This document shows, one piece after another, positions 43,198-48,682 of a stretch of 64,000 nt of DNA. Location: contig JAOACS010000031.1 in the NCBI GenBank assembly GCA_026417655.1, positions 1 through 64,000 on the forward strand, read 5' to 3'. Position 1 is the stretch's first letter; each line of letters opens with the position of its first letter. Source of the stretch: Syntrophobacterales bacterium. GTDB taxonomy: Bacteria > Desulfobacterota > Syntrophobacteria > Syntrophobacterales > Thermodesulforhabdaceae. The translations under genes and the position numbers were made by a program. A model generated the notes under the pieces. The model saw only the letters and a program-made list of their open reading frames with translations. It did no database searches and was not told where the DNA came from.

Positions 43198-45648
43198 TTA
43201 AAAGTCTTTAAAATCATCATCTAAAGGAATTACCTCCTCGGGTGATACCTCCTTCTTCTTGGTCTTATCAGGCTCTGCCTTTAGAGGGGCCCTTTTGGAA
43301 ATGTCGGCCTTTGGAGCAACTAGTTGTTCTTGTTTGGGCCTTCGAGGTGCTACCGTAGTTTTAGTAGCCTTCACCTCCGTATATTTACCACTCTGACATA
43401 GGGATATTAGATCTTTGATATTAGCCCTTAATTGCTGGGCCTGAGCACTTAGTTCCTCTGAAGCTGCTGCGGCTTCCTCGGCACTTGCCGCTGTTCTCTG
43501 AACAACCTTATCCATATCAGAAATGGCCTTGTTGATCTGGGTTACACCTTCGGCCTGTTCATTGGAGGCTGCCGCAATCTCGCCTATAAGTTCTGTAATC
43601 TTACTGGCCCTCGTCTCAACAACTCTAAATGTTTCTTCCGCAAGATGAACATAATTGGACCCTTCCTGAACTCTCCTTCGCGTATTTTCGATGAGGAGAG
43701 CCGTATTTTTAGCAGCCTCAGCAGCTCTCATTGCAAGGGCTCTAACTTCGTCGGCGACCACAGCAAAGCCCGCTCCAGCTTCACCGGCTCTAGCAGCTTC
43801 AACAGCAGCATTCAAGGCAAGAAGGTTAGTCTGGAAGGCGATCTCATCAATGGTTTTTATGATCTTTTCTGTCTCTTCACTTGCCTTGTCGATGTCGTGG
43901 ATTGAATTAACCAGTTTACTCGTAGCTTCCATCGCATCTTTTACGGCTTTTGCCGTCTCCTGAACCATACGGTTTGCTTCCGAAGCATTATGGGAATTTT
44001 GAGTCGCCATGGACGACATCTCTTCAAGAGCCGATGCAGTCTCTTCGAGAGATGCGGCCTGTTCAGAAGCTCCCTTTGCAAACGATTGGCTAGTCGATGA
44101 GACCTCATGGGCTGCAGTAGCTACCTGGTTTACAGCCTCTTCCATGTTTTTTGCTATAGCCGAGAGGGATCGCGTTGTGCTCTTTACAATTAAAAAGGCT
44201 ATTAGGATAGCCAATAAAACTATTGCTCCAGAGGCGATCGCTATAAAAAACCTGGTCTTAGCCACCATATCTGCAAGGACTGTCTCAGAAACTACCCTCT
44301 TGGCTACTAACTTTTCCAATTCCCCTAAAAGCTCCATGTTTTTATTGTAAGCGGGGACTACCTCTTCTTTGAAGATCTTAGTAACCATTTCATTTTGAGC
44401 TCTAACCTTATTCTCCTCTTCAACTACTGCTCCAATTAGGGTATCAAGTCTTGCGAGCCCAGGGCGAATAGTATTTTCGATCTCAAAGATGGCATCGTCA
44501 GGAAGCAATTTGTTAATGGCCTCTTCAATCTTACCTATTGAAGCCCTCATGGCTGAATTGATCTTTTCCATCTCCGGAATAGCCTTGGCCAACATAGGAA
44601 GACTCTGGGCCCAGGAGTGCATCTCCGGGATCATGTAATCTTTCCATTCCTTAAGTTGCACTGTGAGCTTGAAGGGTTCACCCTTTTCAAAGCTGGCAGC
44701 CCTTTTCATAATCGCCTCATTTCTTTCATCTAAATAGACCCCTGTTCCCAGCACCCAACCCCATGGTTCAAAGAGCTGAATATAGGAGATTTTGGGAACC
44801 GAATCCTGCTCGGCATATTTAGGCCAGTAATACATTACAAAACCGGCTCCCCTTTTCTTAGCTACATTAACGAATTCAATAAAAAGCTTCTTACCTTTTT
44901 TGTCGGTAAAATTACTTAGATCCTTCCCATCGAGCTCCGGTTTGTAAGGATGCATGACCATTGTAGGGTGGAGATCATTAATCCAAACATAGTCTTTCCC
45001 TTCGTAACCATAGCGAAGCCCCTTTACCAATTTCTTCGCAATCTCCTGACGTTGGGCTACTGTTCCTAAGGAGCTATCATCAGCTATAGCTTTCACCATA
45101 CTGACCGCCGATTGGACAACAGAGCGGGTAAGAAGTTGGTAGTTGGTAAGACAGGCGATCTCCCTTTCTACCTGACTATTAAGCTCTGCAAGAAATTTTT
45201 GATGATCTCCTAAAATCGTCTGTAGTAGATAAGCTCTTATCCCCGTCCGTTCTATTCGTTGAATGGAAGCCATCTTCAGGACGATCTCGTAGAGCTTCTT
45301 ATTAGATTCCTCAAGGTTTTTTAGAATTTCCCTCGAATCTCCAAAGGTTTTCTCAAACTCCGCTCTCTCCGGTCCGTAGAGAAATTTGCCTATAGCAGAC
45401 TTTGTAGGGTCAGTATTGGCTGAGATCTTTTGTGCCTTAACATTACCTACATATTCTGAAACAGAACTCATCCATTGCATCTCCATCAGCTTAATCTCTG
45501 AGATGTATTGGGGCCATTTCCTGAGAGTTATAATGTTTTGAGCCCTTTCAAGGATGCTCCCTATCCTTGAATAGATCCCCACAGAAAGAACAACAAAGCA
45601 AGTAATAATAAAAACAAAGCCGATACTAACCCTTCTGCCAACGGTCAT
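43198..45648 (-). CDS. Methyl-accepting chemotaxis protein with Cache-type sensor
   Basis: An 816-residue receptor. It has one N-terminal membrane helix ([19 protein letters not shown]) and a long periplasmic part to about residue 470. Within it, the segment [20 protein letters not shown]...[13 protein letters not shown] (about 220-305) is a single Cache_2-type ligand domain. A second helix follows ([20 protein letters not shown]). The cytoplasmic MCP signalling domain has the tip [20 protein letters not shown] and methylation-type helices on both sides. The C-terminal 60 residues are Lys/Pro/Glu-rich and lack an NWETF-type pentapeptide. No clear HAMP domain is seen. It starts 33 bases after the hybrid sensor gene, so it is probably in the same operon. 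Confidence 0.92.
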
Positions 45649-45680: not shown

Positions 45681-48503
45681 TTACTTGTTACCCGTCCGCG
45701 ACAAAAGATTTACAGCCAAGTGAATTAACTTCGTTAACTCAAAGGGTTTTTTAATAAAAGCAGTCCCTTCGTGATCTAATCTGGTTGATAGCTTAGGCTT
45801 GTCGTATCCGGAAATGAAAATAATGGGAATAGAGGGGCGGCTATCCCTCATAAGCTCGGATAGTTCTATGGAGGTTCCGGCTTGAAGATTTACATCAAGA
45901 ATAGCAAAATCAATAGAATTTATGTAATCCCACCATTTTGACCAGGCTTCTTCCAAACTGAAGGCCTCTATAACATTTACACCGTATAGTCTCAATGAGG
46001 ACCGGAGAACATTCATAAGGGAACTATCGTCTTCTACAATAAAAACCGTTTTCCCTTTAAGAATTTCTACTCCCGATTCTCCATCATCCACATCATAATT
46101 TGCTTCTAGAGGAAATTTAATCTCAACCTTTGTATGGTTTTCTAAATCGCCAATAGTCATATACCCCCCGGCCTGCTCTACAATTCGGTTAATGAACGAC
46201 AAGCGACCAAAAGGAGGTTGTTTCTTATCCGATTTTCCATCCTCCAGGTATGTTATGGATAGGACAGCATAGGTCCCCGGTGGAATACGAATATCAGGGG
46301 TAATTAAAGCTACCTGCTGTTTCTCTACTCTTGTCTCTAGCACTACATTTTTGGAAAGAGATAAGTCCTCCCTATTGGTTACAAGAAGGCTGAAAATGGC
46401 TGTTTCAAATTCCGAGCGTCTTATATTAACTTTTCCTATATTAGATTCGAATTTACATTGTAAGTTTAATATATCACGAAGTAAAGGCATAAGAGGATCA
46501 AGAACTTCCTGAATGGTATCATTGAAGGGTTTCTTTTCCACAGAAGACTCATCAGAACGTCCCATTTTTTGAAAATAGCCTGAGAGGGTAGATCCCTTAT
46601 GGACAGTGTCTCTTATCATACCCAGATAGGGCTGAATCTGGGGTGATTTGGCGAATTCAAAGGATAACATATCGCAGACGCCCAATATGATGGTGAGGAG
46701 GTTGTTTAATTCATGGGTAAAAGCTGAAGTCAGGCGAGCAATACTTTCTGCCTTCTGAGCCTCTGCTAGGGTTTTTTGAAGATTTATCTCCTCTGTAATG
46801 TCTCTAGCACACTGGAGGTAACCAACCACGTTTCCGTCCTGGTCAGTTAGGCGGCTAGCTAATATTTTAACATATCGTTTCTGTTCTCTTGACCAGATCC
46901 AACCTGTAGCTTCTACGGTCTGGGGAAAATCCGAAGAGACCCTAATCCTTCCATTTGTAATCCTTTCAATCTCTTCGGGCTCATGGTTCATAAGGAGAAT
47001 TGCTGGTATAAGAATCTTTTTACCACCGAAGAAAAGAGGAGACAAGTCTAAAGGCTTTTGGAGAACGTCTTCTTTATATAAACCTGTTATCTTCTCACAT
47101 GCCTCGTTCCAGACTATAACATTTCCTTCGGTATTAATTATAAAGAGAGGAAGGGGCATCTTATCAACAATTTGTTGGAAAAAGGACCACCTGTTCTCAT
47201 AAAACCTGGCAATCTCTTTTAATTCCGTTATATCCTGTATCAAAGTAAGAATATAGGTATTATGAGCCTTCACCCGACGCAAATAGATCTTGGCTACCCT
47301 TGGTAAAGATCTACCTTCTCTACACTCCCATTCCAGTTGATGTTCAAATCCCTCAAGGGTGCTATTAAAGGACCTCTCCATTTGTGATTCCAAGCCAGGA
47401 AAAATTTTCCAAAGAGGGATATCCTTTGAGACCATTTCACCAATGTTTTTAAACCACCTTAATGCTTCTATGTTCCAGATAAGGATCCTACCTTCGGTGT
47501 CGGCTACTATTACTCCTGCCTGGAGGTTATCTATTAGGAGTTGCCTTAGCTGTTTCTCTGCCTCCAAAGTCTCCCTTAGCTCTTCTTTATATTGCAACTC
47601 AACCTTTAGCATTTCGACGAAGCGTTTGAGATCCTTTGTTTTCTCAACTACGAGATATCTTAGTATTACAACTATTCCCAGAAGGATTGCTAAGGAGCAG
47701 ACAAAACCTAACAATATCCATTTGAACCAGCCTCTAGTCTCAGGCACTTGGAAGATCCACTTATTAAGAAATTCATAGTAGGGTGAATTTGGATCGTCCT
47801 TGAGAACCCTAATATAGGTGTCAATACGTTGTAGGAGTTCACTATGCATTCCCTTATTAGCAGCGATTCTAAGGTCTGTTGGCTGAAAGCTTACAGGAGT
47901 TCTATGAACATTTCTGTAACGCTCAAGAAAGACAAATCCCGAAAGACGGCTTGCTACGCCGCAATCTACCTCCCCATTGTGAACTATTCTAAAAACATCT
48001 TCATAATCCTTCGCCGTCTCGTAGGAGATACCCTTTATATTGAAACTACTGACGATTCGCTGAAACGCTTCCGTATAAATATCTCGCTGAACTAGGGCTA
48101 TTACCTTGTTTTGGAGACCTTCGAGGGTTTGAAGTTTGAAATCTACATTACAATAGAGTTCTCCCCAACTGGTGAAGACCGTTACCTGGTTAAAATTGAA
48201 ACGTTCAATCCTCTCCTGGGAAAACGCCACAGGAAGAAGTAAATCGATGGAACCATTTTTAAGCTGCTCCAAACATTGGGTCCATTCACAGGGAATAAAA
48301 TTTAACTCCAGATTCTCCTTTTTCGCAACATAGCTTATAAGATCTATTAGAAACCCTTTAGCTACTCCGTCTTGGGTAAACACAAGAGGTGGATTTTCAT
48401 AGACTCCCACCGTGTATGAGTTGTGGGTGTTTCCAAAAAGGATGTTGGGGACTAAAAGGGTAATAACGGAAACTTTCATTAAAAGCTTTAAAAGGCATGC
48501 CAT
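45681..48503 (-). CDS. Hybrid sensor protein with degenerate kinase ATP-binding domain
   Basis: A 940-residue membrane sensor. It has a signal peptide, then a periplasmic SBP_bac_3-type solute-binding domain (about 30-250: [30 protein letters not shown]). A membrane helix ([20 protein letters not shown]) and a coiled coil follow, then two PAS domains (about 325-430 and 440-580). A HisKA helix pair has the acceptor-type [14 protein letters not shown]. In the ATPase domain the N-box reads [12 protein letters not shown] instead of LNLAVNARDAM. The DxGxG motif is lost (YLEDGKSD), the lid is deleted, and G2 reads PFGRLSF. The C-terminal receiver ([29 protein letters not shown]) is intact. It probably cannot bind ATP, so its receiver may be phosphorylated by another kinase. 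The gene lies upstream of an MCP gene. Confidence 0.88.
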
Positions 48504-48604: not shown

Positions 48605-48682
48605 TGGCGTCCCCAAGGGGATTTGAACCCCTGTTGCCGGCGTGAAAGGCCGGTGTCCTGGACCTGGCTAGACGATGGGGAC
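48605..48682 (-). tRNA. tRNA-Glu (anticodon TTC)
   Basis: Read on the minus strand, GTCCCCA...TGGGGAC closes a 7-bp acceptor stem. It is followed by discriminator G and an encoded CCA. The anticodon arm CCGGC-CTTTCAC-GCCGG presents TTC, and the T arm is AGGGGTTCAAATCCCCT. The sequence is close to E. coli tRNA-Glu throughout. It is 78 bases including CCA and lies about 100 bases upstream of the hybrid sensor gene in the same direction. Confidence 0.95.

Follow-up and report, generated by a model that had tools for sequence, protein, structure and literature searches.

A probable hybrid histidine pseudokinase whose ATP site appears to have been lost in the ancestor of its genus

The gene at 45681-48503 on the reverse strand of the window (the whole 64,000-nucleotide stretch of DNA analysed) probably encodes a hybrid histidine pseudokinase that would have lost its ATP site in the ancestor of its genus and would now act on a partner as RetS acts on GacS. 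We put the probability of this whole statement at roughly 55%. That the protein is a pseudokinase, as the sequence-only reading had proposed, and a maintained one, is very likely: it is well supported by comparable losses in a sister species, by purifying selection in the degenerate domain and by intact positional orthologues in sister genera. A RetS-like draining or phosphatase action on a partner falls a little short of an even chance. We infer the absence of autophosphorylation, the existence of a partner and the RetS-like activity itself; like a few known bacterial sensors, the protein probably controls or drains other signalling kinases rather than starting a signal of its own.

Domain organization and genomic context

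The genome (G000; 2.3 Mb in 31 contigs) carries 35 HATPase_c matches (E<=0.001), 53 receiver matches (E<=1e-5) and 6 Hpt matches (E<=0.01), and the window corresponds to G000:C2:1-64000. According to Pfam and our reading of the translation, the domain order of the protein is SBP_bac_3-TM-PAS-PAS-HisKA-(degenerate CA)-REC. The solute-binding domain and two PAS domains recognized earlier from the sequence alone are recovered by Pfam (SBP_bac_3 at 31-215, PAS at 325-429 and 441-569). The features of the locus are as follows.

48605..48682, reverse strand: tRNA-Glu(TTC), directly upstream of the sensor gene and on its strand; marks the orthologous locus in 5/5 family genomes
45681..48503, reverse strand: whole gene, probable hybrid histidine pseudokinase, 940 aa (ORF list and Pfam)
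47754..48413, reverse strand: SBP_bac_3 (Venus-flytrap) domain, aa 31-250 (Pfam 47.1 bits, aa 31-215)
47649..47720, reverse strand: transmembrane helix, about aa 262-285 (hydrophobic stretch seen by eye in the translation)
47208..47537, reverse strand: PAS 1, aa 323-432 (Pfam match 325-429)
46788..47207, reverse strand: PAS 2, aa 433-572 (Pfam match 441-569)
46539..46787, reverse strand: HisKA/DHp domain, aa 573-655, H-box FTHELNN (Pfam match 590-639, alignment, AlphaFold)
46713..46715, reverse strand: codon of the phospho-accepting His597, which forms the HExxN motif together with Glu598 and Asn601
46104..46538, reverse strand: degenerate CA (HATPase-like) domain, aa 656-800 (no HATPase_c match; residual profile homology; AlphaFold fold)
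46377..46379, reverse strand: N-box position, Asn to Thr709 (alignment)
46236..46250, reverse strand: G1 remnant YLEDG, aa 752-756, replacing DxGxG (alignment)
46194..46214, reverse strand: G2 remnant PFGRLSF, aa 764-770, with neither F-box nor lid left between G1 and G2 (alignment)
45699..46052, reverse strand: receiver domain, aa 818-935, with Asp870 (codon 45894-45896), Ser898 and Lys919 kept (Pfam Response_reg 820-928, alignment, structure match)
43198..45648, reverse strand: gene for a Cache-domain methyl-accepting chemotaxis protein, downstream neighbour across a 32 bp gap (ORF list; same neighbour in the sister species)

Sequence matches of the SBP region in the PDB comprise, besides solute-binding proteins, a single sensor protein (3h7m), and the signal-like start together with the transmembrane helix suggests that this domain is periplasmic. 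The HisKA domain scores 19.5 bits in Pfam, below the curated cut-off of 26.9, as does that of an intact relative (L010). Neither immediate neighbour of the gene is a kinase or a response regulator, and promoter and terminator scans performed no better than shuffles.

Loss of the ATP-binding site

HATPase_c was not found in the 940-aa protein by Pfam even at E<=10, and the CA region is absent from the 35 matches in the genome at E<=0.001. We scored the ATP boxes on an alignment of 98 full-span homologues, excluding the window protein and its sister-species orthologue L009 and dropping 22 partial-coverage sequences from 121 BLAST hits. Some records contribute more than one row, and the set leans towards intact proteins because it was chosen by full-span similarity.

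No N, G1, F or G2 box survives in the window protein. The N-box Asn (96/98 homologues) is Thr, the G1 Asp (98/98) is Tyr, the first G1 Gly (98/98) is Glu, and the F-box Phe (94/98) is deleted, as are the first (92/98) and middle (96/98) G2 glycines. Glycines still align at 2/5 of the G1/G2 glycine columns: at the second of G1 (97/98), where YLEDG supplies it, and at the last of G2 (96/98). The alignment bears out the earlier description of DxGxG as gone and of G2 as reduced to PFGRLSF. For the other boxes that description needs small adjustments: the Thr/Ser proposed at the N-box is Thr in the window protein, the sister species having Gly there, and the F-box and lid, described as deleted, are so in the window protein and are replaced by unrelated sequence in the sister species.

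Relative to the intact profile, the CA domain of the window protein is short by 14-16 residues. Against a profile of 45 intact CA domains, the window protein scores 32.7 bits and L009 34.7, compared with 180-241 for intact rows, a gap that is somewhat flattered because the intact rows built the profile. A frameshift or second-frame artefact was considered and rejected, since the other five frames of 46000-46650, read by eye, show none of the missing boxes.

The phosphotransfer residues of the other domains are retained. The HisKA histidine and the receiver aspartate, previously read as kept, are indeed present as His597 and Asp870, in columns conserved in 98/98 and 97/98 homologues. The window protein retains HELNN (His597, Glu598 and Asn601, the last being the Asn at +4 found in 97/98) and, in the receiver, the acid pair (first acid 98/98), Asp870, Ser898 (Ser/Thr in 95/98) and Lys919 (97/98). 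The kept HELNN, which fits HE/DxxN/T, suggests a third mechanism beyond the two already proposed (acceptance of phosphate from a partner and signalling by conformation), namely phosphatase action on the receiver of a partner.

The idea that such degeneration is common in the wider family was rejected: among the 98 homologues, a set that leans towards intact proteins, at least two of the seven scored ATP residues are altered in 3 and all are lost in none. The three lie in records titled Verrucomicrobiaceae (L064:4947-6158), Akkermansia muciniphila (L073:4956-6176) and Verrucomicrobiia (L105:1261-2481), and their ATP boxes are partly degenerate, hinting at independent pseudokinase formation. In an alignment-based search of genome contigs, none of the best 80 of 475 confirmed relatives is close, and a single-protein search of genome contigs found no relative. 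One record titled Candidatus Harpocratesius, an Asgard archaeon (L031), matches the N-terminal SBP part (query residues 31-349) and also contains a frame in which G1, F and G2 boxes of the histidine-kinase type occur.

Conservation of the degenerate state in a sister species

One other genome of the genus (G003) carries an orthologue, L009, at 49-51% identity to the window protein and with comparable losses: Gly at the N-box, Ala and Ser in place of the G1 glycines, Asn in the F-box column and Ala for the last G2 Gly. L009 keeps the G1 Asp, its G1-G2 interval is unrelated sequence, and it has no HATPase_c match at E<=10. The frames are open over their full length in both species, the H-box and receiver residues are kept in the alignment, and gene order is conserved on both sides of the locus.

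Within the degenerate CA domain, codon positions 1, 2 and 3 differ between the two species at 37, 21 and 66% (145 codons; position 2 versus 3, Fisher p about 1e-14), a pattern that indicates purifying selection on the protein rather than drift. Third-position change also exceeds second-position change in all five domains tested (SBP, PAS2, HisKA, CA and REC). A pseudogene is disfavoured by this codon-position evidence.

Identity within the genus is highest in HisKA and PAS2 (66%). The gene as a whole is 49% identical, compared with 71-92% for its real neighbours (overlapping antisense frames excluded), and given this faster divergence part of the gene may be under relaxed constraint. In the domain tree, the receiver branch of the window species measures 1.02 against 0.17 for the sister species, and in the loop that follows the phospho-Asp the window receiver no longer has the conserved Pro and Gly. 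Together these weaken the idea of the receiver as a phosphate sink in the window species, where the domain may be drifting or specialising.

Orthology of the locus and timing of the loss

The sensor gene lies directly downstream of tRNA-Glu(TTC), on the same strand, in all five family genomes examined, and this shared position identifies the family genes as positional orthologues. Three of the family genomes come from other genera, and in these the ATP site at the tRNA-Glu locus is intact. Relatives in a second family adjoin tRNA-Pro(CGG) on the other strand in 4/4 genomes examined (five have a match); the sensor gene thus keeps the company of a tRNA gene in both families, though the other neighbours differ. 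Across the order, 10/39 genomes match at E<=1e-50, two of them degenerate (the window genus) and eight with intact boxes. HATPase_c scores 72-86 bits in 7/7 scanned orthologues outside the genus, and in the eighth (L020) the boxes are intact by eye.

Domain trees were built on a fixed topology with 8/9 sequences, leaving out L012, which has no SBP domain. The stem leading to the genus has a length of 2.51 for CA, 1.15 for HisKA, 0.99 for PAS1, 0.91 for REC, 0.58 for PAS2 and 0.54 for SBP. Expressed relative to the rest of the tree, the CA stem exceeds those of SBP, PAS1, PAS2 and REC in 50/50 bootstraps and that of HisKA (median stem/rest 0.47) in 42/50. The branches after the stem, taken relative to an intact pair, give a ratio of 1.00 for CA and 0.55-0.86 for the other five domains; since the two members of that pair belong to different genera, the degenerate gene probably continues to change faster than intact ones per unit time. 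The burst on the genus stem is clear, and the later slowing is relative. Both genus species have lost 20/33 of the CA residues that are invariant in seven intact orthologues; by the same reference, the losses are 8/23 in HisKA and 2/16 in REC.

These comparisons point to an ancestor that would have been an ordinary SBP-PAS-PAS-HisKA-HATPase-REC kinase, with the ATP site destroyed in the ancestor of the genus and the rest kept.

Predicted structure of the degenerate domain

An AlphaFold model built with 47 sequences, mostly intact kinases, has a mean pLDDT of 87, and its secondary structure, as we read it, shows the usual element order of the CA sandwich minus the lid segment. When the input was restricted to the two degenerate sequences, model quality was poor (mean pLDDT 56) and the elements followed much the same order. 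The CA fold is therefore likely to survive without the ATP lid, in a prediction that leans on the relatives. Foldseek retrieved hybrid and simple histidine kinases, including CckA and GacS of P. aeruginosa, with significant E-values and low TM-scores over the whole multi-domain model, the latter probably because the domains are placed differently. The VIA-align matches were filled by receiver domains and have no bearing on the CA fold.

Proposed mechanism and alternatives

In the mechanism that we favour, a periplasmic ligand would be sensed by the SBP domain, and the protein, dimerising through HisKA, would act on another sensor kinase or response regulator in the manner of RetS on GacS. Phosphoryl groups could be taken up on the receiver Asp870, the HELNN motif could remove them from the receiver of the partner, and/or the catalytic core of the partner could be inhibited. 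HisKA shares with CA the stem on which it changed, and today no part of the protein except PAS2 is as well conserved within the genus, which would fit a new dimer or docking partner. Two paralogues in the same genome are candidate partners: L004, which is intact and has the order SBP-PAS-PAS-HisKA-HATPase-REC, and L002, a PAS-PAS hybrid and the closest paralogue. The chemoreceptor gene co-located in both genus species makes a link to chemotaxis possible.

The retained histidine could also belong to a split kinase, in which His597 would receive phosphate in trans from the CA domain of a different kinase, in a heterodimer or a CheA3/CheA4-like complex, before the phosphate passes to its own or another receiver. 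We consider this unlikely. The His is kept in both species while the CA is lost, the HisKA stem change (0.47) and 66% conservation within the genus are as expected with a changed dimer partner, and both L004 and L002 exist in the genome; split kinases have been described, and one survey counts 711 of 42417 HisKA proteins that lack HATPase and keep HE/DxxN/T (PMC3591291). However, none of the 35 HATPase_c matches in the genome (E<=0.001) falls anywhere in the 64 kb of the window, so that no separate kinase core lies beside the gene. Moreover, RocA (PMC7028121) and the evolved ChrS (PMC9491836) are pseudokinases reported not to need the His, and a kept His597 is therefore no proof of phosphorylation. 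Signalling by conformation only, after the fashion of DivL or RocA, would have the ligand shift the PAS-HisKA-CA unit and a partner, possibly the chemoreceptor encoded at 43198-45648 or another kinase, read that shift with no phosphotransfer. The constraint on CA despite its lost ATP boxes fits this account, as do a scaffold predicted to fold and a chemoreceptor gene that lies 32 bp downstream in the window and holds the same place in the sister species; precedents are found in reports that DivL binds DivK~P (PMC5361649) and RocA binds CovS (PMC7028121), both without catalysis. His597, Asp870 and Lys919 are nevertheless kept in both species and would be needless in a purely allosteric protein, and we regard this account as improbable.

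Hardly any weight falls on an unorthodox but active ATP site that binds nucleotide through other residues. L009 does keep one G1 Asp, the window protein has Gly at two of the five G1/G2 columns, and the fold is predicted to be intact; yet the window protein is missing the Asn of the N-box, the Asp and first Gly of G1, the F-box, the lid and two glycines of G2, L009 has lost an overlapping but different set, and the G1 Asp and first Gly are kept in every one of the 98 homologues. It is likewise very improbable that relaxed selection removed the ATP site from a gene that is eroding as a whole. The within-genus identity of 49% against 71-92% for real neighbours, the long receiver branch of the window species and a post-stem ratio that is higher in CA than in the other five domains could be read as decay, but both frames are open and full-length, the excess of third- over second-position change extends across the five domains tested, the degenerate CA included, and the H-box and receiver residues are retained.

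Beyond the RetS-like pseudokinase that we prefer, we tentatively raise the idea, with the odds somewhat against it, that the ATP domain was rebuilt to serve as a surface for new signalling contacts: following the burst of change on the stem, the dead CA and a retuned HisKA would have been selected for a new task, such as binding the kinase core of a partner or sensing a phosphorylated receiver. If this were true, the locus would show how a pseudo-histidine kinase arises, with the states before and after both preserved in nature.

A second pseudokinase family outside the window

Checking HisKA matches that lack HATPase_c led to another gene of the same genome, outside the window, at G000:C2:71451-73712 on the forward strand (L119:952-3213; relatives L120, L124-L141 and L147-L166). 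It encodes dCache_3-HAMP-PAS-HisKA followed by a degenerate CA domain, with no receiver. HATPase_c scores 15-23 bits, below the cut-off of 26.4, in 5/5 members scanned. At E<=1e-60, relatives occur in 27/39 genomes of the order and are absent from the three other genera of the window family; at E<=1e-100, they occur in 31/297 genomes of a phylum sample, 9 of these 31 in the order.

We checked 41 loci against a profile, of which 39 were readable over CA (L161 and L167 were not). DxGxG and GxGLGL are each found in the CA domain of 0/39, the single DxGxG match (L164) sitting in a C-terminal tail. The H-box HE[IVLM]RNP is present in 39/39, and a motif H(F/Y)FYPF in 28/39. The N-box Asn is absent in 20/20 members from the order and kept in 7/19 from outside it. 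From these sequences, the family appears to be a histidine pseudokinase of old origin and wide conservation that has no receiver. It deserves a study of its own and is a stronger lead than the window gene.

With ten loci fetched, the dCache_3 gene was seen directly downstream of an apparent gltX (glutamyl-tRNA synthetase, by eye) in 5/5 inspected genomes from two other families (L170, L171, L172, L173 and L177). The apparent gltX is not directly upstream of it in the two genomes of the window genus.

Comparison with known systems

RetS of Pseudomonas aeruginosa, as described in PMC5992135, has no G boxes, does not autophosphorylate and keeps HExxT; its receiver Asp takes phosphate from GacS, and it dephosphorylates and inhibits GacS. 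The window protein resembles it in being a hybrid kinase with a HATPase region devoid of G boxes, a HisKA domain with the HExxT/N phosphatase motif (here HELNN) and a receiver with a phospho-accepting Asp (PMC5992135). RetS differs in having more than one receiver (REC2 and 'both REC domains' are named in PMC5992135), whereas the window protein combines an SBP domain, two PAS domains and one receiver. It also differs from RetS in that its sister-genus orthologues are intact SBP-type kinases and in that a GacS-like partner is putative here. The sensor of RetS is a 7TMR-DISM domain. No 7TMR-DISM family was found in the window protein by the Pfam scan at E<=10, which gave SBP_bac_3 and PAS instead.

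To our knowledge, DivL of Caulobacter has neither an SBP domain nor a receiver, and we know of neither in RocA of group A Streptococcus. Like the window protein, DivL is a PAS-containing histidine pseudokinase that retains the HK fold; unlike it, DivL has exchanged its His for Tyr, whereas the window protein keeps the His and has lost the ATP site (PMC5361649). RocA shares with it the nature of a sensor-kinase homologue whose CA lacks catalytic residues, and acts on a partner kinase; it is described with six putative transmembrane segments, unlike the window protein (PMC7028121). The ChrS frameshift pseudokinase of C. glutamicum has likewise lost CA function and works through a paralogous kinase, but, according to PMC9491836, it arose by laboratory evolution, whereas the state described here is natural and common to two species.

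In a SMART-based survey (PMC3591291), 1556/42417 HisKA proteins have no detectable HATPase, and 711 of these carry HE/DxxN/T. The window protein fits this HisKA-without-HATPase, HE/DxxN/T class, with the proviso that Pfam rather than SMART was used here and that its HisKA lies under the curated cut-off. The class in that survey is statistical, whereas in the present case one can see both the intact positional orthologues and the branch on which the loss fell. The class itself is already known, with RetS, DivL and RocA as worked examples; what is added is a member, an SBP-PAS sensor and intact positional orthologues. Histidine pseudokinases have been worked out in few cases, and one tRNA-marked locus that is intact in three sister genera and degenerate in one makes it possible to map the losses on a tree and to compare the two forms directly in vitro.
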